Source of the DNA: a virus
Virus record (IMG/VR): IMGVR_UViG_3300030329_004824
Coordinates: 1-38,545 of that record
Length of the DNA stretch: 38,545 nucleotides
Direction: 5' to 3' (one strand)
The translations under genes were made by a program, and so were the position numbers. Shown piece after piece: positions 1,078-38,403 of the stretch. Within the stretch, counting starts at the first letter, position 1, and each line of letters begins with the position of its first letter. The notes beneath the pieces were generated by a model that was given only the letters and a program-made list of their open reading frames with translations, searched no databases and had not been told where the DNA came from.

Positions 1078-1881
1078 GTGACTTGGCTATACGGACTCAC
1101 CGAATCAGACCTCTACAAAGGAGCAGGATTGAAAGAAACGAATGACCTTCCGCGATGGCTGGGTGTTTTCGACATCGAAACCCATCGCCATCTCGAGATG
1201 ACCGAACGGCTCGGACACGATCAAAAGATCGCTGTGCTGGAGAACATCACTGAGTATAGCGACCTCGTCGACTTCGCGGCGAGCGAGGGGATCTTGCTCG
1301 GAAATCGGAAAGACCCTGACAAGGTCCGCGCACACATCATTGCCCACTTCCAGGGCATCATCGAAAAGGCTGCGCTCAAAGCCTACGGAAACCAGATCTA
1401 CGCGATTGGGATCGCTGACTTGGCGGGGGGAAACCCTCGAGTCTGGTGCGCGGATGACAAGCACGACGAAGGCGACGTTCTTCGAGGGTTTATCGAGTAT
1501 CTAGCATCGAAGGGTCCATGCGTCCTCGCTGGCTTCAACATCCGAGGCTTCGACCTCCCCACCATTCGGATTCGTGCCGCTGCGTTGGCGATCAAACTCC
1601 CGTGGTGGTGGCCAGAGACGGTGCGCCGGGACCGCTATGAAACCTCATGGGTTTTTGACGCCATGGATGTCCTGCATGAGGGCACCTGCGACCAGTGGCT
1701 TCGGATGTTTGGCTTGCCCCCCAAGACAGGTAGTGGAGCGAACATCGCCAACATGACACCCAAGCAAGTCGCTCAGTATTGCGCCGACGATGTCGAGCGC
1801 GAGCGGTTGCTGATTCAACGCCTAGCGAAGAACAATTCCATGGTCTCCAAATTCGCCCCTAGCCAACCAGTAATGCAATGA
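1078..1881 (+). CDS. DnaQ-like (DEDD) 3'-5' exonuclease
   Basis: A predicted 3'-5' exonuclease of the DEDD/RNase H fold, about 267 aa. Three exo motifs are visible: Exo I FDIET (about residues 30-34, Asp and Glu metal ligands), Exo II AGFNIRGFDLP (about 151-161, catalytic Asp), and Exo III YCADDVER (about 233-240, the Y-x3-D form of DEDDy enzymes). It resembles stand-alone proofreading-like domains of PolB-type polymerases, but no polymerase domain follows. It sits directly before RecT, sharing an ATGA overlap, so it may supply the resecting nuclease of a phage recombination pair. Start: GTG 1078 is the longest; TTG 1129 has a stronger ribosome site (AAAGGAG, 5 nt spacing) and keeps all motifs, so it may be the true start. 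Confidence 0.8.
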   Translation: MTWLYGLTESDLYKGAGLKETNDLPRWLGVFDIETHRHLEMTERLGHDQKIAVLENITEYSDLVDFAASEGILLGNRKDPDKVRAHIIAHFQGIIEKAALKAYGNQIYAIGIADLAGGNPRVWCADDKHDEGDVLRGFIEYLASKGPCVLAGFNIRGFDLPTIRIRAAALAIKLPWWWPETVRRDRYETSWVFDAMDVLHEGTCDQWLRMFGLPPKTGSGANIANMTPKQVAQYCADDVERERLLIQRLAKNNSMVSKFAPSQPVMQ

Positions 1882-2852
1882 CAAATCTCGCGACCCGCTC
1901 TCAGAACCCAATCGTCGAAGTTATCTATCAGAAGGAATCTGCGCTCGCTGAACTTGTCGGCCCTAAGAACATAAAGTCGTTCATGGCGAACGTCCTGGCC
2001 CAGCTGACCAAGAACAAGCAACTACAGCGGTGTTCGCCTAGCAGCTTCTACCAAGCCGCCCACCAGTGCGCCCGCTTGAACCTGCAACCAGGAGAGTTCG
2101 GCCATGTCTACTTGGTGCCGTATGGCAAAGATGCCAACCTCCAAATCGGATACAAGGGCCTCATGGAGTTGGCGCAGCGCCATCCGCGTGTGGCAACAGT
2201 CACCGCTGAATTGGTCTACAAAGGCGAGCAATTCAAGTATGACAAGGCGACTGGTGTGATTGAGCATCCCGGCGCAGAACTTGGATCGATTGAGTTCAAA
2301 GACGAGAACATCCTGGGTGCCTACTGTCTTGTGGAGCTTCGCGATTGGGATCGGCCGATCAGCTTGGTGATGACCAAGGCCCAAATCGAGGAGCGCCGAA
2401 ACCGGAGCGCAGCGAAGAACTCCAACTTCTGGCGCAACGACTACGCCGCTATGGCTCGGAAGACGGTGATCCGTGCGTTGCTGAATGGTGGGAGCGTTCC
2501 CATGTCCACCGAATTGGCGTCCGCAATCGCGCTCGACATAGAGCAAGACAAGCGAGTGGAGGTCGTCGAGGTAGCGAGCGAACCCCTCACCCAGGTCGAT
2601 ACAGGTTGGGAGGTGGAGACACCAGAGCCGGCACCCGACCCAGTAGACAATTTTGGCCTGGGCGAACCCGAAGCTCCTCCAGCCAAACTCCCCAAGAAGG
2701 AAGTCCTGAAAGCCATCGGGGAAATGGGGCTGACGGATGCCCACATCACAAGCATGGCCAGCGACCTCATGGGTGACACTGTGCTGGATATTTCATCGCT
2801 GCCGGTCACGGAGCTACGGATTCTTCATGCTCGACTGAAGACCACCATCTGA
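1878..2852 (+). CDS. recT: RecT-family single-strand annealing protein
   Basis: Annealing recombinase of the RecT family, which pairs complementary single strands and usually works with a 5'-3' or other phage exonuclease. The core is typical: KSFMANVLAQLTKN near the N-terminus, the SFYQAAHQCARLNLQPGEFG block at about residues 55-74, then VYLVPYGK and LQIGYKGLMELAQR. The central WRNDYAAMARKTVIRALL segment (about 185-202) is also characteristic. The C-terminal third (about 225-295) is a Pro/Glu-rich linker followed by a small helical tail, as often seen in phage RecT proteins. Its length of 324 aa is normal. The start overlaps the exonuclease stop (ATGA) and its own stop overlaps the next start (TGATG), so the three recombination genes form a coupled unit. 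Confidence 0.9.
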   Translation: MTNLATRSQNPIVEVIYQKESALAELVGPKNIKSFMANVLAQLTKNKQLQRCSPSSFYQAAHQCARLNLQPGEFGHVYLVPYGKDANLQIGYKGLMELAQRHPRVATVTAELVYKGEQFKYDKATGVIEHPGAELGSIEFKDENILGAYCLVELRDWDRPISLVMTKAQIEERRNRSAAKNSNFWRNDYAAMARKTVIRALLNGGSVPMSTELASAIALDIEQDKRVEVVEVASEPLTQVDTGWEVETPEPAPDPVDNFGLGEPEAPPAKLPKKEVLKAIGEMGLTDAHITSMASDLMGDTVLDISSLPVTELRILHARLKTTI

Positions 2853-3247
2853 TGGTTGCCTCCCCCACCGCTCGAACCCTGGAACGCTGCAGGAAATGGC
2901 AGTGGCGAGCAGGCGTAGTCGAGCGTTGGATTCCTCAAATGAGGCGCAGGGCTGACCTTTTCGGATGCATCGATCTGGTGGCCCTGGACAGCAGCGACGG
3001 CGTCCTGGGAATCCAGGCGACCAGCACGGGCAACATGTCGAGCCGGCTGCATAAGGCAACGACCGACTGTCGCGACGATCTCACGCGATGGCTAGAGCGG
3101 AACAACCGCTTCGAGATCTGGGGTTGGGCAAAGCGAGGACCACGGGGCAAGCGCAAGCTGTGGACGCTGAGACGGGTCGAGGTCTATCTGGCGTGGGATC
3201 CTTCTCCCACCCTGTGCCACCGCGAACTCGATAATGACCCCAGCTGA
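2852..3247 (+). CDS. PD-(D/E)XK-like nuclease, resolvase or VRR-NUC type
   Basis: A 131-aa basic protein that looks like small phage PD-(D/E)XK nucleases. The recognisable block is RRADLFGCIDLVAL (about residues 32-45) followed by GIQATSTGN (about 53-61). The two Asp residues and the Q-x-T in place of E-x-K match the catalytic core of the Holliday-junction-resolvase-like family found next to recombinases in phages. Upstream, RKWQWRAGVVERWIP fits the preceding helix and strand. It is coupled to RecT and overlaps the RNA polymerase start by 14 bp. Likely role: cutting branched recombination or replication intermediates. The fold call is by motif only. Confidence 0.65.
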   Translation: MVASPTARTLERCRKWQWRAGVVERWIPQMRRRADLFGCIDLVALDSSDGVLGIQATSTGNMSSRLHKATTDCRDDLTRWLERNNRFEIWGWAKRGPRGKRKLWTLRRVEVYLAWDPSPTLCHRELDNDPS

Positions 3248-5363
3248 AAAGGAACTCGCTCGACAACTCGCGCAGAGATTTGAGCTATATCTGAAGGCGT
3301 GGTTCACCAAGGCGTCCAAAGCCTCGCCTCTGTACGTTGTCCGGACCCAGTTCGGAATCGCCACTACAGCTGAGATCACGACTCGCGTCATTGTTCGGCG
3401 GTTGGTGACCACCCCGGCCTTGAAAGATCTAGGTCGTGAGATCGTCACGCTCTTGATCCATGAGAAGAACGTCGGCCGGGATCTGACGTTCCGACAGCGC
3501 ACCCGTGTCGGCGCCATCTTAGTCATCCTCTTCGAGAAGGCGACTGGTGCCGTCAGGTTCACGTCGAGTCTGACGCGCATTGGTGGCCCCAAGATGTTCG
3601 CGACGAAGGAGGTCCACCCCACCGACGAGACGCTCGCGTGGATGAACCGGAACAAGGCGATCTTCAACTCGCTGGATCACATTACAGCAGTCTCTCACAC
3701 GCCACACGGCGACTGGCAGGACTTCGTCATCAATGACCTTCTGGAGTTCATTCGACCGTCAAAGAAAAACCACTTCACCAACACTATGGCCAACGCCCCA
3801 CTCTTCATAAACCAACAAGAACGCATCGCAGCTGCGGCCATGGCCATGAGCACAGCAAATCGCTTGCAGCGGACAGCCTGGCGAGTGAACCCCCAGGTCT
3901 TGTCGGTGTTGGAAACGGCATTCCGATCCAAGCGTTCTATCGCGGACCTCCCATCGTCCGAGCCTCCGCAAAAGCCAAACTCACAAACAGCAACAAAGGT
4001 GGAGTGGGGAACCCACTTCGACTTGAAGCGACGGTGGGACAATCGACGGCGTCTCATGGCCTTGCACTTGAGTGAGGCTAGGCACTTCGGAGATCGCCCT
4101 CTGCACTGGAGATGGAATGCCGACTTCCGTGGCAGGATATATCCAATCGCTCGCACCAACGTGCATCCTCAAGGACCCGACCTCGCTCGCGCACTTCTCG
4201 ATCTCGACGAGGGAAAGGTGATCGGTGACAAATGGAATCACCTCGCATACCACGGCGCGAACGAATACGGCATCAATCGAAAGTCGCGACAAGATAGGCT
4301 CGACTGGGTTCTCGAAAATACCGACGAGATCTGCCGGATTGCCGAGGACCCATGGGCCAACGATCACTGGTGCCATGCCAGCCATCCATGGAGGTATCTC
4401 AGATTCTGCTTCGAGTGGGCGCGCTTTCAAAAGCAGGGGGAAGACATGATCACCAACCTCCCATGCCAGATTGACGCTACCGCGAGCGGGATGCAGATCA
4501 TCGCGCTACTCACTAACGATGCAGAGCTCGGCGCAATGGTGAACCTCACGGACACCGATACGCCGTCAGATTTCTACACTCAGATCTGCGACATTGCCTA
4601 CCCTGAGATCCGCAAAACCAACGACGGCATGTTGTGGGAGCAAACTCACGGGAGGATTCCTCGAGCGCCAATCAAGCTCGCGTGCTTCACCATTTCCTAC
4701 GGAGGGGGTCCAGGCGCAGCATCAAACAAGGTGAGAACTTGGATGCGCGACGAAACTGAGAGATATCCATTCGACGGAAAATCTCGGACTCGCCTGAGCA
4801 GCATCATCGCACAGGAAGTATTCAAAGCCGTCCGACAGACCGGGAAACAAGCTGCGGAGCTGACGCAGTGGCTCAAAGACCTCCGCTTCGTAGCGAAAGA
4901 GAGAAACAGCTGGGTCCATTGGAAAACCCCATCCGGCTTCGTTGTTGTCAGCGACTACCGCAAGGGCGAGTCGGTTCGGATTGGCCTGAGTCCATCCTGC
5001 GATGAAAACCAGGCATGGGAATTTTTCGATACCGTCCCGACACCTCATCTGAACCTGCGGCGGATTGGATCCACGATGCCGGTGAACTTCATTCACGCCA
5101 TGGATGCGGCGATCATGCATCACATCGGCGTGGAAATGAATCGTGAGGGAATCCCCTTCGGTGCCAACCATGATTGCGTGTCGGTCACGGCCACAGACAT
5201 GGAACGGACTCACGCAATTGTCCGAGGCTCCTACCGCAAAGTTTTTTCCCAGGACATCCTGGGGTCCATCGCAGACGACTTCGGTGTGGACAGGTTCCAG
5301 GTCACTTCAGAGAAGCAGCAATCACTCACGCAATTCGAACGCTTTGACTACATGTGGACATGA
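3234..5363 (+). CDS. T7-type single-subunit DNA-directed RNA polymerase
   Basis: A phage/mitochondrial-type RNA polymerase of 709 aa that would transcribe the virion genes from phage promoters. Key motifs: WNADFRGRIYP (about 294-304, T7 DWRGRVY); LPCQIDATASGMQ (motif A, about 407-419, catalytic Asp); KLACFTISYGG (motif B, about 481-491, with Lys and Tyr spaced as T7 K631/Y639); HDCVS (motif C, about 645-649, the second catalytic Asp). FIHAMDAAIM matches T7 FVHSQDGSHL. At 709 aa it is well short of T7's 883; motif A lies about 125 residues earlier, so the N-terminal domain that binds promoter and nascent RNA is reduced. It sits between the recombination genes and the virion operon. Confidence 0.97.
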   Translation: MTPAEKELARQLAQRFELYLKAWFTKASKASPLYVVRTQFGIATTAEITTRVIVRRLVTTPALKDLGREIVTLLIHEKNVGRDLTFRQRTRVGAILVILFEKATGAVRFTSSLTRIGGPKMFATKEVHPTDETLAWMNRNKAIFNSLDHITAVSHTPHGDWQDFVINDLLEFIRPSKKNHFTNTMANAPLFINQQERIAAAAMAMSTANRLQRTAWRVNPQVLSVLETAFRSKRSIADLPSSEPPQKPNSQTATKVEWGTHFDLKRRWDNRRRLMALHLSEARHFGDRPLHWRWNADFRGRIYPIARTNVHPQGPDLARALLDLDEGKVIGDKWNHLAYHGANEYGINRKSRQDRLDWVLENTDEICRIAEDPWANDHWCHASHPWRYLRFCFEWARFQKQGEDMITNLPCQIDATASGMQIIALLTNDAELGAMVNLTDTDTPSDFYTQICDIAYPEIRKTNDGMLWEQTHGRIPRAPIKLACFTISYGGGPGAASNKVRTWMRDETERYPFDGKSRTRLSSIIAQEVFKAVRQTGKQAAELTQWLKDLRFVAKERNSWVHWKTPSGFVVVSDYRKGESVRIGLSPSCDENQAWEFFDTVPTPHLNLRRIGSTMPVNFIHAMDAAIMHHIGVEMNREGIPFGANHDCVSVTATDMERTHAIVRGSYRKVFSQDILGSIADDFGVDRFQVTSEKQQSLTQFERFDYMWT

Positions 5364-23177: not shown

Positions 23178-23777
23178 ATGAGAGTATTAGCAATTGAGGG
23201 TGCCATCCCGCAACTAAGTATTACCGGGGCGACCAACGCCGACCCTATCGTTATCACCACTTCCTCTACCACCAACCTCGAAACGGGGATGAAGGTCACC
23301 ATTGCCGGCGTAGGTGGAAACACCAACGCGAACGGCGAGCACCGAATCACCGTGATCGACTCCACTACCTTCCGGTTGAACAAGGTAGCAGGCAATGCGG
23401 CCTACACGTCTGGCGGAACCATCGACGCCAACTTCTCTCGCGAAAAGCAATACTCCTCTGGCACTTCGTCGATGGGCAAGAAGCACTTCATCAACTGGAA
23501 GGCACCGATGTATAAGTCATCGCGCATATTCGTCCAGCTGGCGAGCGACCCGACAACCACCAATAAGGACATCAAGATCGAAGCTCTGGGAATGCCCACG
23601 GGCGATGCCGATTGGGCGGTTCTCGACACGGTCACCCAGGCGGACACCTTCACTCAGGACACAACTTGGCAGTACACCAGCGCCGCATTCGACAGCTACC
23701 CCATCATGGCGATCCGTGTGACGGCTGTTTCTTCCTCGACCAACGTCATGCGGGCCTGGATTGTGGCAGCTGAATGA
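23178..23777 (+). CDS. Putative virion or tail-decoration protein with an FCCH-like domain
   Basis: A 199-aa protein with no recognised enzyme motif. Residues about 13-83 are an FCCH-like beta domain, LSITGATNADPIVITTSSTT with VTIAGVGGNTNANG and SGGTID. It is nearly the same design as the insert in the nozzle protein at 10606-10827. The C-terminal half (about 100-199) looks like a beta sandwich with alternating strands (FINWKAPMYKSSRIFVQLAS), as in carbohydrate-binding or receptor-binding tips. ATG 23178 is preferred over an earlier in-frame start at 23043 that would overlap the holin-like gene. It overlaps the small terminase start (ATGA). Tail location is inferred from context. Confidence 0.65.
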   Translation: MRVLAIEGAIPQLSITGATNADPIVITTSSTTNLETGMKVTIAGVGGNTNANGEHRITVIDSTTFRLNKVAGNAAYTSGGTIDANFSREKQYSSGTSSMGKKHFINWKAPMYKSSRIFVQLASDPTTTNKDIKIEALGMPTGDADWAVLDTVTQADTFTQDTTWQYTSAAFDSYPIMAIRVTAVSSSTNVMRAWIVAAE

Positions 23778-23989
23778 TCGACTCTGATCGAAACACCGAT
23801 CTGGCTCGCAAGCTGGTCGAGACTTTGCTCGATGAGATTGACAACGGCAGGACTGATGCGCCGTTCTTGCAGGTTGTGCGACAGGTGATCAAGGATTCCG
23901 GCGTCGAGATGATGGCCGACGCCAGCAGTAAGATCACCGATTTGCAAGACGCGCTTCCACGGAAGCCGCAGTTCAAGACCGTTGACTGA
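23774..23989 (+). CDS. Small terminase subunit, T7 gp18-like
   Basis: DNA-recognition partner of the packaging motor. Its 71 aa is a little shorter than T7 gp18 (89 aa). The pattern ARKLVETLLDEIDNGRTDAPFLQVVRQVIKDSGVE (about 11-45) is the recognisable core of T7-type small terminases. It sits directly before the large subunit and overlaps it by 8 bp. Start ATG 23774 overlaps the preceding stop. Confidence 0.85.
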   Translation: MIDSDRNTDLARKLVETLLDEIDNGRTDAPFLQVVRQVIKDSGVEMMADASSKITDLQDALPRKPQFKTVD

Positions 23990-25742
23990 ATCGAGCAGCG
24001 CGACGGAATCGACTAGCGCGACTAACGCCTGGAGCGACGAAGACCTCAAGGACTTCCGGATGTTCCTATGCCTGGCGTTCCACACGCTGGACATCGGCGA
24101 GCCTACGCGCCTGCAATACGACTGTGCCAAGCATATGCAGCACGGTCCGAACCGGCTTGTGATCGAAGCGTTTCGCGGCTTCGGAAAGAGCCTGATCGCA
24201 TCGCTCTATCTGCTGTGGAAATTGCTACAGGACAAGGAGCGCAAGGTTCTCTATACGTCGGCGTCCGCAGGAAAGGCCAGCAAAGCGACCACTTTCATGC
24301 TGTCCATGCTGTCCAAGATGCCGCACTTGCGCGAGCTACTGCCCGAGATAGACCAGCGATCCTCGTCGCTGGGGTTCGATGTGGCCGGCGTTATGCCGTC
24401 TCAGGATCCGAGCGTCACCGCTTTGTCCATCACAGCCAACGCGATAACAGGCACACGGAGCACGGATATCTGCGCCGATGACGTGGAATCCAAGAAGAAC
24501 TCTATGACCGCTGGGATGCGCGAACGAATCCAAGACGTGTGTCGCGAGCTTGGCGGTGCATTGCTCAGGTCCGAGGACGAGGTCCCCGACGCTAAGGTCT
24601 TCTATCTGGGCACGCCACAGCTGGAGGAGTCGCTCTATCATGAGCTTCCCAAGCGGGGATACCGGGTGATGATTTACCCCATCACCTACCCCACACCCGA
24701 GGAGATCGATCTGTATATGGGTCGGCTCGCACCGATCATCCTTTCGGATCTTGAGAAGGACCCGAGCCTCGCAGGCCAGCCGACCGAGCCAACGCGGTTT
24801 GGATCTGAGGTCATCCTCCAACGCGAGGCCGAGTATGGGCACTTGGGATTCCTGCTGCAGTTCAAGCTCATGCCGACCATCGGCGCAGCCGAGCGGTTCC
24901 CGCTGCGCGTTCCCGACCTCATCGTCATGGATTGCGATGCAGAGCTCGCGCCCGAGCGCATGGTCTGGAGCAACTCCCCCGAGCTACGCTACGACGATGC
25001 CGAATTGGAGTGTTGCGGATTCAACCGCGATCACTTCCATCGTCCCGCTCAGATCCTGGGGGACTGGATCCCCTACACCGACAGCGTCATGGCCGTCGAT
25101 ATCTCCGGTCGAGGCAAGGATGAGCTGGGCTGGTGTGTCGCCAAATATCTGAACGGCACGGTGCATGTGTTAGATGTCGGCGGGATGCTGGATGGCACCT
25201 GCGAGACCACACTTGATCAGCTGGGCCGGCTCGCCAGGCGTTGGGGAGTCAAGACCATGATCGCCGAGGAAAACTGGGGCGACGGTATGTGGTCCAAGCT
25301 CATGCGCCCCCACCTGGAACGCCACCATCCAAAGTGTGCGCTGCAGGAGTTCAAGACCAAAGGCCAAAAGGAGACGAGGATCATTGGAATCCTAGATCCG
25401 CTCCTCGCATCGCATCGTCTGGTTATCAATCGATCCGCGATATTGAACGACACGGAATCCGCGAAGTCCTACACGCATATTGATCGTGACGCTTCACTGT
25501 CCTACCAGCTGATCTACCAGTTGAGCAGGATCACCACGGATCGCGGATCACTGCAACACGACGACCGTCTGGACGCGGTTGCACAAGCTGCGGCATACTT
25601 CGTCGACCTGATGGATGCTGACCAGGAGAGGATGATGCAGACACGCAGGCAGGAGGAGTTCGAAAATCGACTTAGCGATTGGCATGACTTTGTGTCCAAC
25701 GCACCCGCTACCCCCACCGATTGGTACCAGCATGACCACTAA
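23982..25742 (+). CDS. Large terminase subunit (packaging ATPase-nuclease, T7 gp19-like)
   Basis: DNA packaging motor, 586 aa, the same length as T7 gp19. ATPase: Walker A in AFRGFGKSLIA (about 63-73) and Walker B in TDICADDVESKKNS (about 161-174), with ITGTRS before it as in T7. Nuclease (RNase H-like): first acidic site MAVDISGRGKDELGW (about 370-384), then MIAEENWGDGMW, and HDDRLDAVAQAAAYF near the end. The only start that keeps the family's N-terminal helix (DEDLKDFRMFLCLAFHTL) is TTG 23982, which overlaps the small subunit; the first ATG (24060) would cut into it. A GACTAGC/GACTAAC repeat lies at its 5' end. Confidence 0.95.
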   Translation: MTESSSATESTSATNAWSDEDLKDFRMFLCLAFHTLDIGEPTRLQYDCAKHMQHGPNRLVIEAFRGFGKSLIASLYLLWKLLQDKERKVLYTSASAGKASKATTFMLSMLSKMPHLRELLPEIDQRSSSLGFDVAGVMPSQDPSVTALSITANAITGTRSTDICADDVESKKNSMTAGMRERIQDVCRELGGALLRSEDEVPDAKVFYLGTPQLEESLYHELPKRGYRVMIYPITYPTPEEIDLYMGRLAPIILSDLEKDPSLAGQPTEPTRFGSEVILQREAEYGHLGFLLQFKLMPTIGAAERFPLRVPDLIVMDCDAELAPERMVWSNSPELRYDDAELECCGFNRDHFHRPAQILGDWIPYTDSVMAVDISGRGKDELGWCVAKYLNGTVHVLDVGGMLDGTCETTLDQLGRLARRWGVKTMIAEENWGDGMWSKLMRPHLERHHPKCALQEFKTKGQKETRIIGILDPLLASHRLVINRSAILNDTESAKSYTHIDRDASLSYQLIYQLSRITTDRGSLQHDDRLDAVAQAAAYFVDLMDADQERMMQTRRQEEFENRLSDWHDFVSNAPATPTDWYQHDH

Positions 25743-25963: not shown

Positions 25964-26533
25964 ATGCGTATGACTACGACCCAAGGGACAACGGGGGGTC
26001 GTTCTCGAAAGAAAGCGCACGACAAGCGCAAGAATCACTGGGCCAAGGTAGCACCGCGCTCAGAGATCGCACAGCGAATCGAAACGCTGGCGGTTGAGCA
26101 GAACCTGAGCAGGGTAGACCTCGCTCGCGCCGTGGATATCCGATATCCCACCCTCAATCGCATGATGAGGGTTGGCGAATTGCCGGCCAGGATCATCGCT
26201 GACCTGGCGAAGACGCTTGGCACCTCCACCGAGTTCATCCTCACGGGTGAGGATTCCGCGAGCGACCTGATCGGCGCCAGTGTCGCCAAACTCGACGAGG
26301 CACTGTTTGCGCTCAACGCCACCGCCGAGATCATCAGCCGCCTGCAATGCGACGATGCCGAGGACGATGGCGGCGACGATGCGGCACACCTCGCGACCAT
26401 CCTCGCGTATGTCGAGTGGAATGGCGATCAAGAGGGCACTACCTGTCCGTGCTGTCGACGCGCCAAGCCACACGGGCACCATCCGCAGTGTGCCCTCGGG
26501 GCAGCTGTCTCCGATGACGGATGCGGCGACTGA
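25964..26533 (+). CDS. XRE-family HTH regulator with a C-terminal Cys/His cluster
   Basis: A 189-aa DNA-binding protein (start ATG 25964, or ATG 25970 six bases on). The N-terminus is basic (GGRSRKKAHDKRKNHW). Residues about 36-90 form an XRE/Cro-type helix-turn-helix: IAQRIETLAVEQNLSRVDLA with RAVDIRYPTLNRMMRVGELP, then LAKTLGTSTEFILTGE. An acidic linker follows, and the end holds CPCCRRAKPHGHHPQCALGAA, a C-x2-C...H-x-H..C arrangement that probably binds zinc and is common in small phage proteins. It opens the accessory block after the terminase. It could be a Cro-like or late-module regulator; its target sites are not identified. Confidence 0.8.
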   Translation: MRMTTTQGTTGGRSRKKAHDKRKNHWAKVAPRSEIAQRIETLAVEQNLSRVDLARAVDIRYPTLNRMMRVGELPARIIADLAKTLGTSTEFILTGEDSASDLIGASVAKLDEALFALNATAEIISRLQCDDAEDDGGDDAAHLATILAYVEWNGDQEGTTCPCCRRAKPHGHHPQCALGAAVSDDGCGD

Positions 26534-26748: not shown

Positions 26749-26845
26749 TGTCGCAGTGCCGCCAGTTTGCCCTGTAATCGATTCGGATGGGTCCGGAGTC
26801 TATTCATAGCTCCAAATCCCAACGCGCAGCACAGGCCAATCTGGA

Positions 26846-26880
26846 GCGACTAGCGCGGCTAACGCGACTAACGCGGCTCC
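26846..26880 (+). repeat. 9-bp tandem repeat (GCGRCTARC)
   Basis: Three consecutive 9-mers GCGACTAGC, GCGGCTAAC, GCGACTAAC and a partial fourth lie in the non-coding stretch 26749-26899, just beyond the end of the leftward RHH gene. The ten bases CTGGAGCGAC immediately before (26841-26850) and an 18-mer of the repeat also occur, in swapped order, at the 5' end of the large terminase gene (24011-24038). The rest of the 26749-26899 stretch shows nothing I can name. Confidence 0.6.
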
Positions 26881-26899
26881 AACGCCAGTCTACGCCAGA

Positions 26900-27115
26900 T
26901 CAGCGCAGATCGGAAATCGTCGGCTCGTCGACGGCGCTCGGGGTGGCTTGTTGGATTTCCGTCGCGGTTCCAAGCGTCAGATTTCGGACATACTGAGCGA
27001 CGGGGAGGTCGAGGGCGGCGGCTCGCGTTTTGACTCGCGACCACTCCGCGTCGGAAAATCGTACAGCGCGCATCCGGCGCTCGGTTCTGTCCTCGGATTC
27101 TCGGGGTCTTGCCAT
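26900..27115 (-). CDS. Ribbon-helix-helix (CopG/Arc-type) DNA-binding protein
   Basis: A leftward 71-aa gene inside an otherwise rightward block. After a basic, charged start (MARPRESEDRTERRM) comes a clear ribbon-helix-helix: strand MRAVRFSDAEW, then helices SRVKTRAAALDLPVAQYVRNLTLG (about 15-50). The C-terminal tail is short and Thr/Pro-rich. ATG 27115 is preferred over GTG 27121. It is divergent from the gene at 27235, with an operator-like inverted repeat between them, so it probably represses its own promoter and the neighbour's. This gene pair looks like a self-contained cassette placed into the phage. Confidence 0.75.
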   Translation of the reverse strand: MARPRESEDRTERRMRAVRFSDAEWSRVKTRAAALDLPVAQYVRNLTLGTATEIQQATPSAVDEPTISDLR

Positions 27116-27234
27116 CCCCACAGGCTAGGTGCTCGCAGGGAATTTTCGATATCCCCTTGCCGCTAGGTTGCAAGGATACCGATATCATTATACTCTACCA
27201 CCTGTAGCATTCCCTTTTGCCTACGGAGAAGACC
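27116..27234. promoter_or_regulatory. Divergent promoter/operator region for the RHH cassette
   Basis: Between the two divergent genes lies a rightward sigma-70-like promoter: TTGCAA (27168-27173), 15 bp, TATACT (27189-27194). The spacer contains GATACCGATATC (27175-27186), a motif repeated elsewhere in the accessory region. TATCCCCTTGC (27150-27160) and GCAAGGATA (27170-27178) form an imperfect inverted repeat, so the -35 region lies in a likely operator. The start at 27235 has ACGGAGAAGACC upstream as a ribosome site. Confidence 0.5.
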
Positions 27235-27699: not shown

Positions 27700-28563
27700 A
27701 TGAAAACGAAAATCAAGCGCCTCCGCGCTATCTCTACCGCGCCCGTTGCGCGGTCATCATCCTGGGACCGCGACACCCTCGCGGCCGTCCGTCGCGAGAT
27801 CGCGCAAACCATTGGCGCCAGCTGGCCAGCCTCGCGATCTATCCTTTCTGTCGATCAAGATGTGAAAACGGTGAAGGGTAGGAAGGTTGGTTTTCTCACC
27901 GGCGCCGTCTTCATGGCGGCACACACTAAGGGCGGAATTGAAGTCTGCCGGTGGCGCAATCGGTGCGAGGCGTCTTGCATCGACGAAACCGGGATGGGGC
28001 AATGCCCGCCCGTAAAGGCCGCCCGGCTGGCGCGAAAGCGCTTGCTGGATTCTCACCCGTCGTTGTTCCTCCGGCTACTCCGGCTAGAGATTGCATCTCT
28101 ACAACGCAAGGCGACGGCGCAAGGGTTGCGCGCTGCAGTCCGCCTAAACGCCACTTCCGATATCCCCTACGAAGAGATCGCGCCGTGGTTGTTCGATGAA
28201 GCCGGTTCGGTCCAATTCTACGACTACACCAAATACCCGGCGGGTGATCGGAACACGCCCGCAAACTATCACCTGACATACTCGTGGGTGCCGTCCATGA
28301 CGCCTCGCGTTATGCGCCAGTATCTCGCGCAAGGTACCCTTGCGGTCCCGTTCGCGCGGTTGGATGAAGCCGACCCCGTCGCCCTTCCCGAGCGATTCCT
28401 CGGGCATCCCGTCGTCGACGGGGACGAGCACGACCTTGTTTTTCCACCGTTCCGCAACGTCGGAGATGTGGTGGGACTGGTTTTCAAAGGCAAGGGTGGA
28501 ACACGCCCGCCGTGGCGGCCGGGGATCTTCGCGCAACCTATCAGCGGGGGGGCGACCCGATGA
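27700..28563 (+). CDS. GP88/DUF7227-like phage protein with Cys cluster
   Basis: A 287-aa protein of a family common in phages and of unknown function. Family marks: KTVKGRKVGFLTGAVFMAAH (about 56-75), a Cys cluster EVCRWRNRCEASCIDETGMG followed by QC (about 80-102), LRAAVRLNATSDIPYEE (about 142-158), VQFYDYTKYP and NYHLTYSW (about 170-196). The HPVVDGDEHDLVF block near the end is also typical. Four Cys residues in a loop suggest a metal or Fe-S site, but the biochemical role is not known. Start ATG 27700. It is followed by a coupled 28-aa membrane peptide gene. Confidence 0.75.
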   Translation: MKTKIKRLRAISTAPVARSSSWDRDTLAAVRREIAQTIGASWPASRSILSVDQDVKTVKGRKVGFLTGAVFMAAHTKGGIEVCRWRNRCEASCIDETGMGQCPPVKAARLARKRLLDSHPSLFLRLLRLEIASLQRKATAQGLRAAVRLNATSDIPYEEIAPWLFDEAGSVQFYDYTKYPAGDRNTPANYHLTYSWVPSMTPRVMRQYLAQGTLAVPFARLDEADPVALPERFLGHPVVDGDEHDLVFPPFRNVGDVVGLVFKGKGGTRPPWRPGIFAQPISGGATR

Positions 28564-29283: not shown

Positions 29284-29323
29284 CCGATAGCGATAACCTG
29301 GCGAGCGGGTCCGGAAATTTTTT

Positions 29324-29354
29324 GGCCTTCCAGCTGCGGTTGGAGGGCCTTTTT
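29324..29354 (+). terminator. Rho-independent terminator of the rightward accessory block
   Basis: GGCCTTCCA and TTGGAGGGCC form a GC-rich stem around a short loop (29324-29349, one G-T pair), followed directly by five T. It starts 40 bp after the stop at 29283. Confidence 0.8.
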
Positions 29355-29804
29355 CGTCGCCGGGAGGCCGACCCTTTTCGGGAGGATTTGGCGTCGAGCG
29401 TGGTTTTTGAGGCGGTGGAGGGCCGCTTTCGCGTCCCACCATAGATAAGCGCTATCGGTATCCCGCTCGCCCAACGTCGACCAGGGCCGCCGGTACCGTT
29501 GTCCTGGGGCCTGGATACCGACAACCCGTCGACCCTTTGCCCGTGTTTGTCGACCACCTCCCCGGGGTTGTCGCTGCAATCTCGCGACAGGTCGACCGCA
29601 AGTCCCGGCAGTGTCGCCCTCCCCGCTAGGATGACAACCCAGCCACCCCCGCAATGCAGTACCGGCGGCGCGTCCCCGTCGCCCTGGGCCCAGCTTGGCG
29701 GCCTCTGATGTCGGCCGACCGTCAGGCCTTTCCCATGACCCCCCGGCAGGGGGGACTAGCGGGACTACAGTATACGTAATAGGGGGGAAAATGCATCCGA
29801 CCCC
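29355..29804. other. Non-coding cis-region with phased GTCGACC repeats between convergent terminators
   Basis: This 450-bp stretch lies between two converging operons, each ended by a terminator, so it is shielded from transcription. GTCGACC occurs at 29476, 29528, 29549 and 29591: spacings 52, 21 and 42 bp, all close to multiples of 10.5 bp. GTTGTC (29498, 29567) and its complement GACAAC (29520, 29633) also recur. GATACCGATAGC is present on the minus strand (29451-29462) and GATACCGA at 29514. A hairpin of six C, GGCA and six G lies at 29739-29754. I see no credible gene here. An origin, partition or other protein-assembly site fits best, but this is inference. Confidence 0.5.
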
Positions 29805-29830
29805 AAAACCCCGCAAAGGGCGACCGGGGT
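29805..29830 (-). terminator. Rho-independent terminator of the leftward accessory operon
   Basis: On the minus strand ACCCCG, an 11-nt loop and CGGGGT form a six-pair stem followed by T residues (plus-strand A-run 29805-29808). It lies about 90 bp beyond the last leftward stop at 29922. Confidence 0.65.
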
Positions 29831-29921
29831 GCCCATCTCCCGATCTACGCAAGTCCGCTGAATAACGAGGTAGGCGGCCTCCGTCCTTGCGATATCAGGA
29901 GTCTACCATAACCGCTATCGC

Positions 29922-31953: not shown

Positions 31954-32254
31954 CCTTGTCGGGCATCTGGTCGACGAAGTGCATGAGCATGGCAAGGTTG
32001 CTCGCTACGTGATCGAGATGTCCAAGTCCTGATTCGATATCGTTATCTTCTCCAGAGTACCACGCGAGCAGATGCCGCATCATGCTGGCGTAGACGGTTC
32101 GATATCTATAGGACCGCATGAAGTTGAAATCGTCGAGTCCCCTGTATTTGGCGGCACCGATAGCGAAAGCGCGGGCGGCACCGATCACCAGTTCTGGGGG
32201 AACCATGTCCACGCCAGGTTTCCCCTGGTTCTTGCGCGGGATCGCGTCAGTCAT
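31907..32254 (-). CDS. DUF5664 / dATP-dGTP diphosphohydrolase N-terminal-like protein
   Basis: A 115-aa protein from ATG 32254 (MTDAIPRKNQGKPGVDMVPP). Family marks: VPPELVIGAARAFAIGAAKY (about 18-37), YASMMRHLLAWYSGEDNDIESGLGHLDHVASNLAMLMHF (about 54-92). The E-D-x-D-x-E-S-G...H-L-D-H segment is the conserved acidic helix of this MazG-like helical fold. The family includes the nucleotide-trimming enzyme of the diaminopurine (Z-genome) phages, but most members stand alone and no PurZ-like gene is in the window, so a nucleotide-pool role is the safer reading. ATG 32254 has AGCAGG upstream; an earlier in-frame start at 32287 is less likely. Confidence 0.7.
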   Translation of the reverse strand: MTDAIPRKNQGKPGVDMVPPELVIGAARAFAIGAAKYRGLDDFNFMRSYRYRTVYASMMRHLLAWYSGEDNDIESGLGHLDHVASNLAMLMHFVDQMPDKDDRPFSKRSAEPMGD

Positions 32255-32273: not shown

Positions 32274-32285
32274 GATACCGATAGC
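32274..32285. promoter_or_regulatory. GATACCGATAGC operator-like motif
   Basis: This 12-mer stands 20 bp before the start of the DUF5664 gene. It is repeated exactly on the minus strand at 29451-29462 and with one change (GATACCGATATC) at 27175-27186 in the RHH promoter spacer. On the gene's own strand it reads GCTATCGGTATC followed by TCGCTATC. A common regulator, perhaps the RHH protein, is likely. Confidence 0.45.
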
Positions 32286-36087: not shown

Positions 36088-36615
36088 CTAGACCTCTTCG
36101 TCCAACGCATTCTCGAATCTCGAATACCACTCGGCATAAAGCCTGGGTTGAGAACCGCTTATTCTCCGCTGGATCTTCTCCACCAAGGCACGGCCCTCCT
36201 CGTACGAAACAAGACGAAATCGCTCAGGGAGGATGATCATTCCATTGACCAGGGGAGGATCCCAGGAGAGGAGCTTCCGAAGGCGTGCGGCACTCGGTCG
36301 CCTGGCGAACACGGCCTCGAGCACCTCCTCGTCAATCAAGACCGACCCGCGCTCCATCTTGTCTCCGATGGGCGTTCTCTGATCGGCGAGGCCCGTAAGC
36401 CAGTCCAGCGAGACCCCCAGCGCGTTCGCGCAAGGCGCGGCATTCTCTAAGGTTGGGCGAATCGGAGGGGTCCGAAACCAGCTATGGATAGCTGCGAGGG
36501 TCACGCCACTCTGCTCCGCGAGCTTGCGCCGGCTCCATCCTATGTCCTCCAGCGCCTCGGTGAGGCGCTCGGAGAAGATATCAGAATACTCGTGTTCAGC
36601 CGATGTCATGGACAC
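36088..36615 (-). CDS. CI-like XRE repressor
   Basis: A 175-aa regulator, start ATG 36615 (or 36609). Residues about 14-75 form a lambda-type helix-turn-helix: FSERLTEALEDIGWSRRKLA with EQSGVTLAAIHSWFRTPPIR, then CANALGVSLDWLTGLAD. The C-terminal part has no RecA-sensitive peptidase signature (no A-G cleavage site with Ser/Lys dyad that I can see), so induction may not follow the classical LexA-like route. It is divergent from the excisionase and integrase genes with a 224-bp control region between them, the usual layout for a lysogeny switch. Confidence 0.8.
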   Translation of the reverse strand: MSMTSAEHEYSDIFSERLTEALEDIGWSRRKLAEQSGVTLAAIHSWFRTPPIRPTLENAAPCANALGVSLDWLTGLADQRTPIGDKMERGSVLIDEEVLEAVFARRPSAARLRKLLSWDPPLVNGMIILPERFRLVSYEEGRALVEKIQRRISGSQPRLYAEWYSRFENALDEEV

Positions 36616-38361: not shown

Positions 38362-38403
38362 GCCCAGGTGGCGGAATTGGCAGACGCGCTAGGTTCAGGT
38401 CCC
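38362..38403 (+). other. attP: Attachment core: 5' part of a tRNA-Leu(CAG) gene
   Basis: The sequence has the acceptor 5' strand GCCCAGG, TG, the D-arm of tRNA-Leu (GCGGAATTGGCAGACGC), and an anticodon loop TTCAGGT with anticodon CAG. The match then breaks off: no variable arm, T-arm or acceptor 3' strand follows. It is therefore a tRNA fragment, not a gene, and fits a phage attP core for integration into tRNA-Leu. A T7-like cyanophage (P-SSP7) is known to carry a tRNA-Leu match of about this length after int. Confidence 0.75.

Follow-up and report, generated by a model that had tools for sequence, protein, structure and literature searches.

The largest gap between genes in the genome of an uncultured, T7-related phage contains four exact copies of the heptamer GTCGACC, all on one face of the DNA helix, and no second cluster of this kind is found in the 38,545-bp virus record (here called the window, meaning the whole stretch of DNA that was analyzed). 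The reading proposed for this array, at a probability of about 0.45, is that it is a short-repeat block for packaging, positioned at the concatemer junction like the SRL and SRR repeats of T7. This is the leading reading because T7-like phages cluster short-repeat arrays downstream of the large terminase gene (terL) and at their terminal repeats; it is held below one half because of a conflict in gene order around the GP88 gene.

The GTCGACC array

An earlier note on this DNA had described four GTCGACC copies in about 120 bp, spaced by 52, 21 and 42 bp and facing the same side of the helix. Both observations were borne out (Table 1), with a phase coherence of R=0.99 at 10.5 bp. The chance of such coherence is about 5e-5 at a fixed period and about 2e-3 with the period left free between 10 and 11 bp, for a word and a helical period that were both chosen after the sequence had been inspected. 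GTCGACC is the sole 7-mer in the 38.5 kb window with at least four non-overlapping exact copies in about 122 bp. When the 638-bp gap was shuffled 5000 times with its dinucleotides preserved, any such cluster appeared in just six shuffles and a phased one in none. Because the word and period were noticed before testing, and because GTCGACC is over-represented throughout the window (23 copies vs. 8.9 expected), the array is graded as probably, not certainly, functional.

Table 1. Positions of the GTCGACC copies, of other elements in and near the gap, and of the phage genes and sites discussed.
Feature	Position	Strand	Remarks
Small terminase (TerS), T7 gp18 / DNA maturase A type	23774..23989	+	candidate array ligand
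Large terminase (TerL), T7 gp19 / DNA maturase B type	23982..25742	+	phrog_38, E=2.7e-83
XRE protein	25964-26533		
RHH-like ORF, 71 aa	26901-27116	-	by eye; divergent from GP88 operon
GP88 gene	27700-28563		rightward operon
Gap, 638 bp	29284..29921		largest in window; between rightward GP88 operon and leftward gene block; from gap list and codon scores
Palindrome-like site GATAGCGATAAC	29286..29297		motif GATAnCGnTATC
Rho-independent terminator, rightward operon	29324..29349	+	good
GTCGACC copies with at most one mismatch, n=12	29367..29907	+	same strand; weak evidence
Palindrome-like site GCTATCGGTATC	29451..29462		motif GATAnCGnTATC
GTCGACC copy 1	29476..29482	+	
Degenerate GATAnCGnTATC-motif copy GATACCGACAAC	29514..29525		adjoins GTCGACC copy 2
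GTCGACC copy 2	29528..29534	+	52 bp from copy 1
GTCGACC copy 3	29549..29555	+	21 bp from copy 2
GTCGACC copy 4	29591..29597	+	42 bp from copy 3
Perfect C6-GGCA-G6 hairpin	29739..29754		
Terminator-like hairpin facing leftward genes	29796..29835	-	weak, 4-T tail
XRE protein	36088-36615		
Presumed attP, 5' half of tRNA-Leu-like sequence (GCCCAGGTGGCGGAATTGGCAGACGCGCTAGGTTCAGGTCC)	38362-38402		downstream of integrase

Phasing is limited to the four exact copies. Allowing one mismatch gives 12 same-strand copies (at 29367, 29393, the four exact positions, 29613, 29678, 29710, 29714, 29819 and 29901), against a mean of 1.5 and a maximum of 7 in 1000 shuffles; as a set these are not phased (R=0.23), the outer ones being out of phase. 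Near-copy counting was dropped as evidence, since coding DNA of relatives gave similar counts. The GTTGTC and GACAAC words said to accompany the array are each present twice, but mostly out of register with it (about 2.1, 4.2 and 8.7 turns). The perfect C6/G6 hairpin exists as described, but its segment folds no more stably than shuffled sequence (z=0.19). As for the two inward-pointing terminators thought to shield the region, the rightward one is convincing but the leftward one is weak.

Positions 29600-29900 are clearly non-coding, with a codon score below the 1st percentile of coding windows, and a hidden gene there is unlikely; at 29300-29450 its absence is less certain, with a borderline codon score on the minus strand. 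Neither an Rfam search nor ARAGORN returned anything in the window (no RNA family and no tRNA, respectively), and the ATCTGTT pause signal of T7 is absent from the gap. For a non-coding, same-face array at a single site, the suggestion of a nucleoprotein assembly site is a reasonable one.

The phage and its host

The DNA is that of a temperate phage of the T7-like kind, which encodes a tyrosine integrase besides its T7-type TerS and TerL. Autographivirus-like hallmarks are present, namely a single-subunit RNA polymerase (RNAP) together with T7-type genes for terminase, portal, nozzle and internal virion proteins that follow the order of T7; the TerL, TerS, RNAP, gp14 and nozzle genes are recognized as T7-type, and RecT and an XRE repressor are also encoded. 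TerS matches PF11123 at E=1.1e-5, slightly under the Pfam cut-off, and phrog_891 at E=0.0056, and it aligns with the TerS of seven T7-like phages. TerL is 40–44% identical to those of T7-like phages, and the RNAP mostly 25–33% identical to known RNAPs. A nine-bp tandem repeat (GCGACTAAC) lies between terL and GP88 at 26846-26875, and the start of terL contains a nearly identical copy of 19 bp (24010-24028).

No family A DNA polymerase or helicase-primase was recognized between the early and structural genes, where the 1078-5363 region encodes the RNAP, RecT and a PolB-like 3'-5' exonuclease. Neither Pfam nor PHROGs identified a replication initiator among the scanned proteins, several ORFs being without assignment. 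Since no DNA polymerase, helicase-primase or initiator was recognized in the scanned proteins, replication is probably host-dependent. Allowing one mismatch at most, the tRNA-Leu piece at the presumed attP occurs in 8 of 199 genomes of Planctomycetota vs. none of 200 in the phylum of Telmatospirillum, and a planctomycete host is suggested.

Both contig ends (1-240 and 38500-38545) have long G-runs, and no end repeat was found in the contig. Five GTAC-centered elements lie in the first 120 bp, near the early genes. For one T7-like genome, terminal repeats are reported to have led to a circular assembly, with the junction between the last and first gene (PMC3350473), and a single internal copy of the repeat would therefore be expected in the window contig.

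Relatives of the window

Close relatives were sought in several ways. Scans with single proteins found none for terL, and the best matches were 30–34% identical for the major capsid protein, at most 45% for the portal and at most 41% for GP88. Aligned terL scans of viral and genome contigs reached 44% identity at best, and 392 Planctomycetota genomes gave a best match of 41%. All relatives found are too distant for alignment of the gap, and a distant blastn search of the gap against phage records returned short chance pieces. With terL identity at or below 44%, the array could not be compared base by base, and a group-wide survey of T7-like phages was made instead.

The word itself was not found to be shared. 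Three GTCGACC copies including a 21-bp step occur in 25 stretches of viral contigs, none near relatives of the window's main phage proteins, and 19 of these records, searched whole, contain no T7-like terL.

Short-repeat arrays downstream of terL

In the survey, an array was defined as four or more exact copies of a 7-mer in a span of 125 bp. Among a redundant set of 172 loci, most such clusters lie no more than 2 kb past terL, at spacings that are not all multiples of three. Of 147 non-redundant T7-like terL loci, 21 have a cluster within 2.5 kb downstream and one has a cluster upstream, where 1.8 times as much DNA was covered; ten shuffles of the downstream DNA gave zero to one locus. Since the upstream control consists of coding DNA, whereas part of the downstream DNA is non-coding, the shuffles are the better control. 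Spacing was clearest when loci were counted per distance, a pooled Fourier analysis being uninformative. Exact 9-mers 10–11 bp apart were found downstream in 51 of the 147 loci, upstream in 7 and in shuffles in 3; for 20 or 22 bp the corresponding numbers are 29, 3 and 4. Spacings of 14–19 bp are near background.

Individual examples vary. In Limnohabitans phage YIMV22061 and in HTVC011P, the gap that follows terL contains an array. L242, a contig with GP88-like and RNAP genes, opens with variants of GGCTCCCTCTA repeated strictly every 11 bp over some 400 bp (positions 1-410). Locus L094 has two separate arrays, about 1.7 kb and 4.6 kb after terL (TCTTTAA at 10, 11 and 10 bp, and a tandem array with an 11-bp unit), which makes a second array at some distance from terL possible.

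Ten phages with mapped ends were examined by the same array criterion, with the left end starting with the terminal repeat. The repeat lengths of T7, SP6 and Syn5 were taken as known. The others came from the phage records (T3, gh-1, phiKMV, Pasto, LUZ100, ProddE) or, for P-SSP7, from PMC3350473. Arrays are significant in T7, SP6, gh-1 and Pasto, where they fall inside the left terminal repeat or immediately to its right (0 of 200 shuffles); that of T3 is marginal. By this measure Syn5, P-SSP7, LUZ100 and ProddE have no array at their mapped ends, and phiKMV none beyond chance.

Short-repeat arrays at one- or two-turn spacing downstream of terL are a group-wide pattern of T7-like phages, and the GTCGACC array probably, though not certainly, belongs to it. 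A search of freely readable papers found no description of such arrays as a feature of the group. More tentatively, T7-like phages might mark the packaging junction with a phage-specific word repeated at whole turns (10–11 bp, 20–22 bp and multiples), on one face of which the terminase would dock, word and spacing varying from phage to phage; this generalization is considered doubtful.

A proposed packaging junction and the position of GP88

If the array is a packaging signal, the gap would be the concatemer junction, the terminase would be the ligand and the phasing would matter for binding. Replication would yield head-to-tail concatemers, and a packaging complex of TerS, TerL and possibly other phage or host factors would dock on the same-face GTCGACC copies, in a stretch that the rightward terminator may keep free of read-through from the late side. 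A cut in the concatemer near the array would then produce terminally redundant virion ends. The earlier note had suggested that the binding protein may be new; in a T7-like context the first candidate is the gp18-type TerS, ahead of the XRE, RHH and Zn-cluster proteins.

The array sits downstream of terL and before the integrase gene, but beyond GP88, and this is the main objection to a packaging role. In GP88-bearing relatives with an array, it precedes GP88: it lies between terL and the GP88-like gene in six of them (L050, L052, L115, L141, L241 and L266) and directly before GP88 in L242. That of the window follows, on the far side of GP88 and 3.7 kb from terL. By the conserved order, the junction would be expected at about 26749-27216, a stretch with no array of this kind. 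Two explanations are at hand: a rearrangement of gene order in the lineage of this phage, or a true junction near 26749-27216, in which case the GTCGACC copies have another role. In favor of the first, the window offers nothing comparable between terL and GP88, neither a non-coding stretch nor an array; gene order favors the second, as does the palindrome GATACCGATATC, found at 27175 in a stretch that resembles a promoter. Also counted against a packaging role are the small number of exact copies and their wide spacing, the phages with no array, or none beyond a marginal one, at their mapped ends, and the fact that T7's own spacing of about 13 bp is not helical.

Other possible roles

If the junction does lie near 26749-27216, the gap could be a left-arm regulatory region in which the array binds a phage regulator, either of the XRE proteins or the RHH-like ORF. 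This is improbable, though the gene order of the GP88-bearing relatives points that way, and operator-like sites do occur here. Palindromes of the GATAnCGnTATC type are found in the gap (Table 1), at the heads of both converging operons (27175-27186 and 32274-32285) and at 32036-32047, mainly in intergenic or promoter-like positions, and are the probable operator of a phage regulator. They are, however, distinct from the heptamers, and those in the gap likely belong to a regulator separate from the array. There is no other GTCGACC cluster in the window, the promoters of the converging operons included, and the gap has no sigma70-like promoter that would be an obvious target for operators. Less probable again is that the array arose by chance or from base composition, the gap being GC-rich and unconstrained, or that it is left over from decayed sequence: the window-wide excess of GTCGACC, the post hoc choice of word and period and the near-copy enrichment, which is not unusual in relatives, all fit it, but not the rarity of exact and phased clusters in shuffles or the lack of a second cluster in 38.5 kb.

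A replication origin, with the copies as iterons bound by an unrecognized initiator, is if anything slightly less probable still, and a packaging signal is the more likely of the two. Phased direct repeats are typical of iterons, and the lack of a recognized DNA polymerase, helicase-primase or initiator among the scanned proteins, with the probable dependence on the host, also speaks for an origin. However, the copies are short and sparse, the region has no DnaA box, and its most AT-rich 60-mer is 48% AT, below the genome's 95th percentile. A GC-skew switch had been proposed as a check on an origin; both kinds of skew, GC and AT, indeed change over near 30 kb, yet this is the very point at which the genes change direction, which explains the switch and leaves the check confounded. 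Far less likely than any of these is a partition site (centromere) or a set of arm-type sites for the integrase. RHH centromere-binding proteins use 7-bp repeats, and both an RHH-like ORF and an integrase are present. Against a partition site, Pfam does not recognize that ORF, and no ParA/ParB- or ParM/ParR-type genes were found by Pfam or PHROGs among the scanned proteins; the phage has instead an integrase and a presumed attP. Arm-type sites are disfavored by the position of that attP, beside the integrase and 8.8 kb from the gap.

Implications

To our knowledge it is not settled how T7-type terminases recognize their own concatemers, or what purpose the short repeats of T7 serve. If the tentative group-wide generalization is correct, arrays of a phage-specific word at whole turns would be a general rule for recognition of their own DNA by these enzymes. 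With diverse T7-like phages sharing a one- or two-turn preference among different words, the question becomes testable. For the window, the small terminase replaces a new initiator as the target in the search for a binding protein. Most useful of all is the group-wide pattern of short repeats downstream of terL.

Comparison with known systems

Iteron origins and centromere arrays resemble the window in having same-face direct repeats, but no initiator or ParA was recognized in the window, and the gap has no DnaA box and no AT-rich element. Direct repeats also occur in the packaging-start (pac) DNA of SPP1 and SF6, which differ in being headful packagers with unrelated repeats. Small terminases of this type form helix-turn-helix rings for which a DNA-wrapping model has been proposed (PMC4737164, PMC9611059). 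They bind weakly, and the DNA-binding domain of the SF6 small terminase showed little preference for the pac repeats of SPP1/SF6 (PMC4737164); in a recent review, DNA recognition by small terminases is described as unclear and controversial (PMC9611059).

Among T7-like phages, the SRL and SRR repeats of T7 (CCTAAAG), which flank its 160-bp terminal repeat, share with the window a 7-bp word, a non-coding location in one place and T7-type TerS and TerL. They are denser, mostly 13 bp apart, and adjoin a mapped repeat, whereas the window has steps of 52, 21 and 42 bp, a GP88 operon between terL and array, and a terminus that is presumed. The arrays of SP6 (CTTAGTG), gh-1 (CCATAGG) and Pasto (GCACCCA) at terminal repeats, and those of HTVC011P (ACTATTA) and YIMV22061 (CACCAGG) after terL, use other words and are nearer to terL or a mapped repeat. 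Like that of the window, they consist of clustered short exact words, in several cases at roughly one- or two-turn spacing; and LUZ100 has terminators at its right end, as does the gap described here.
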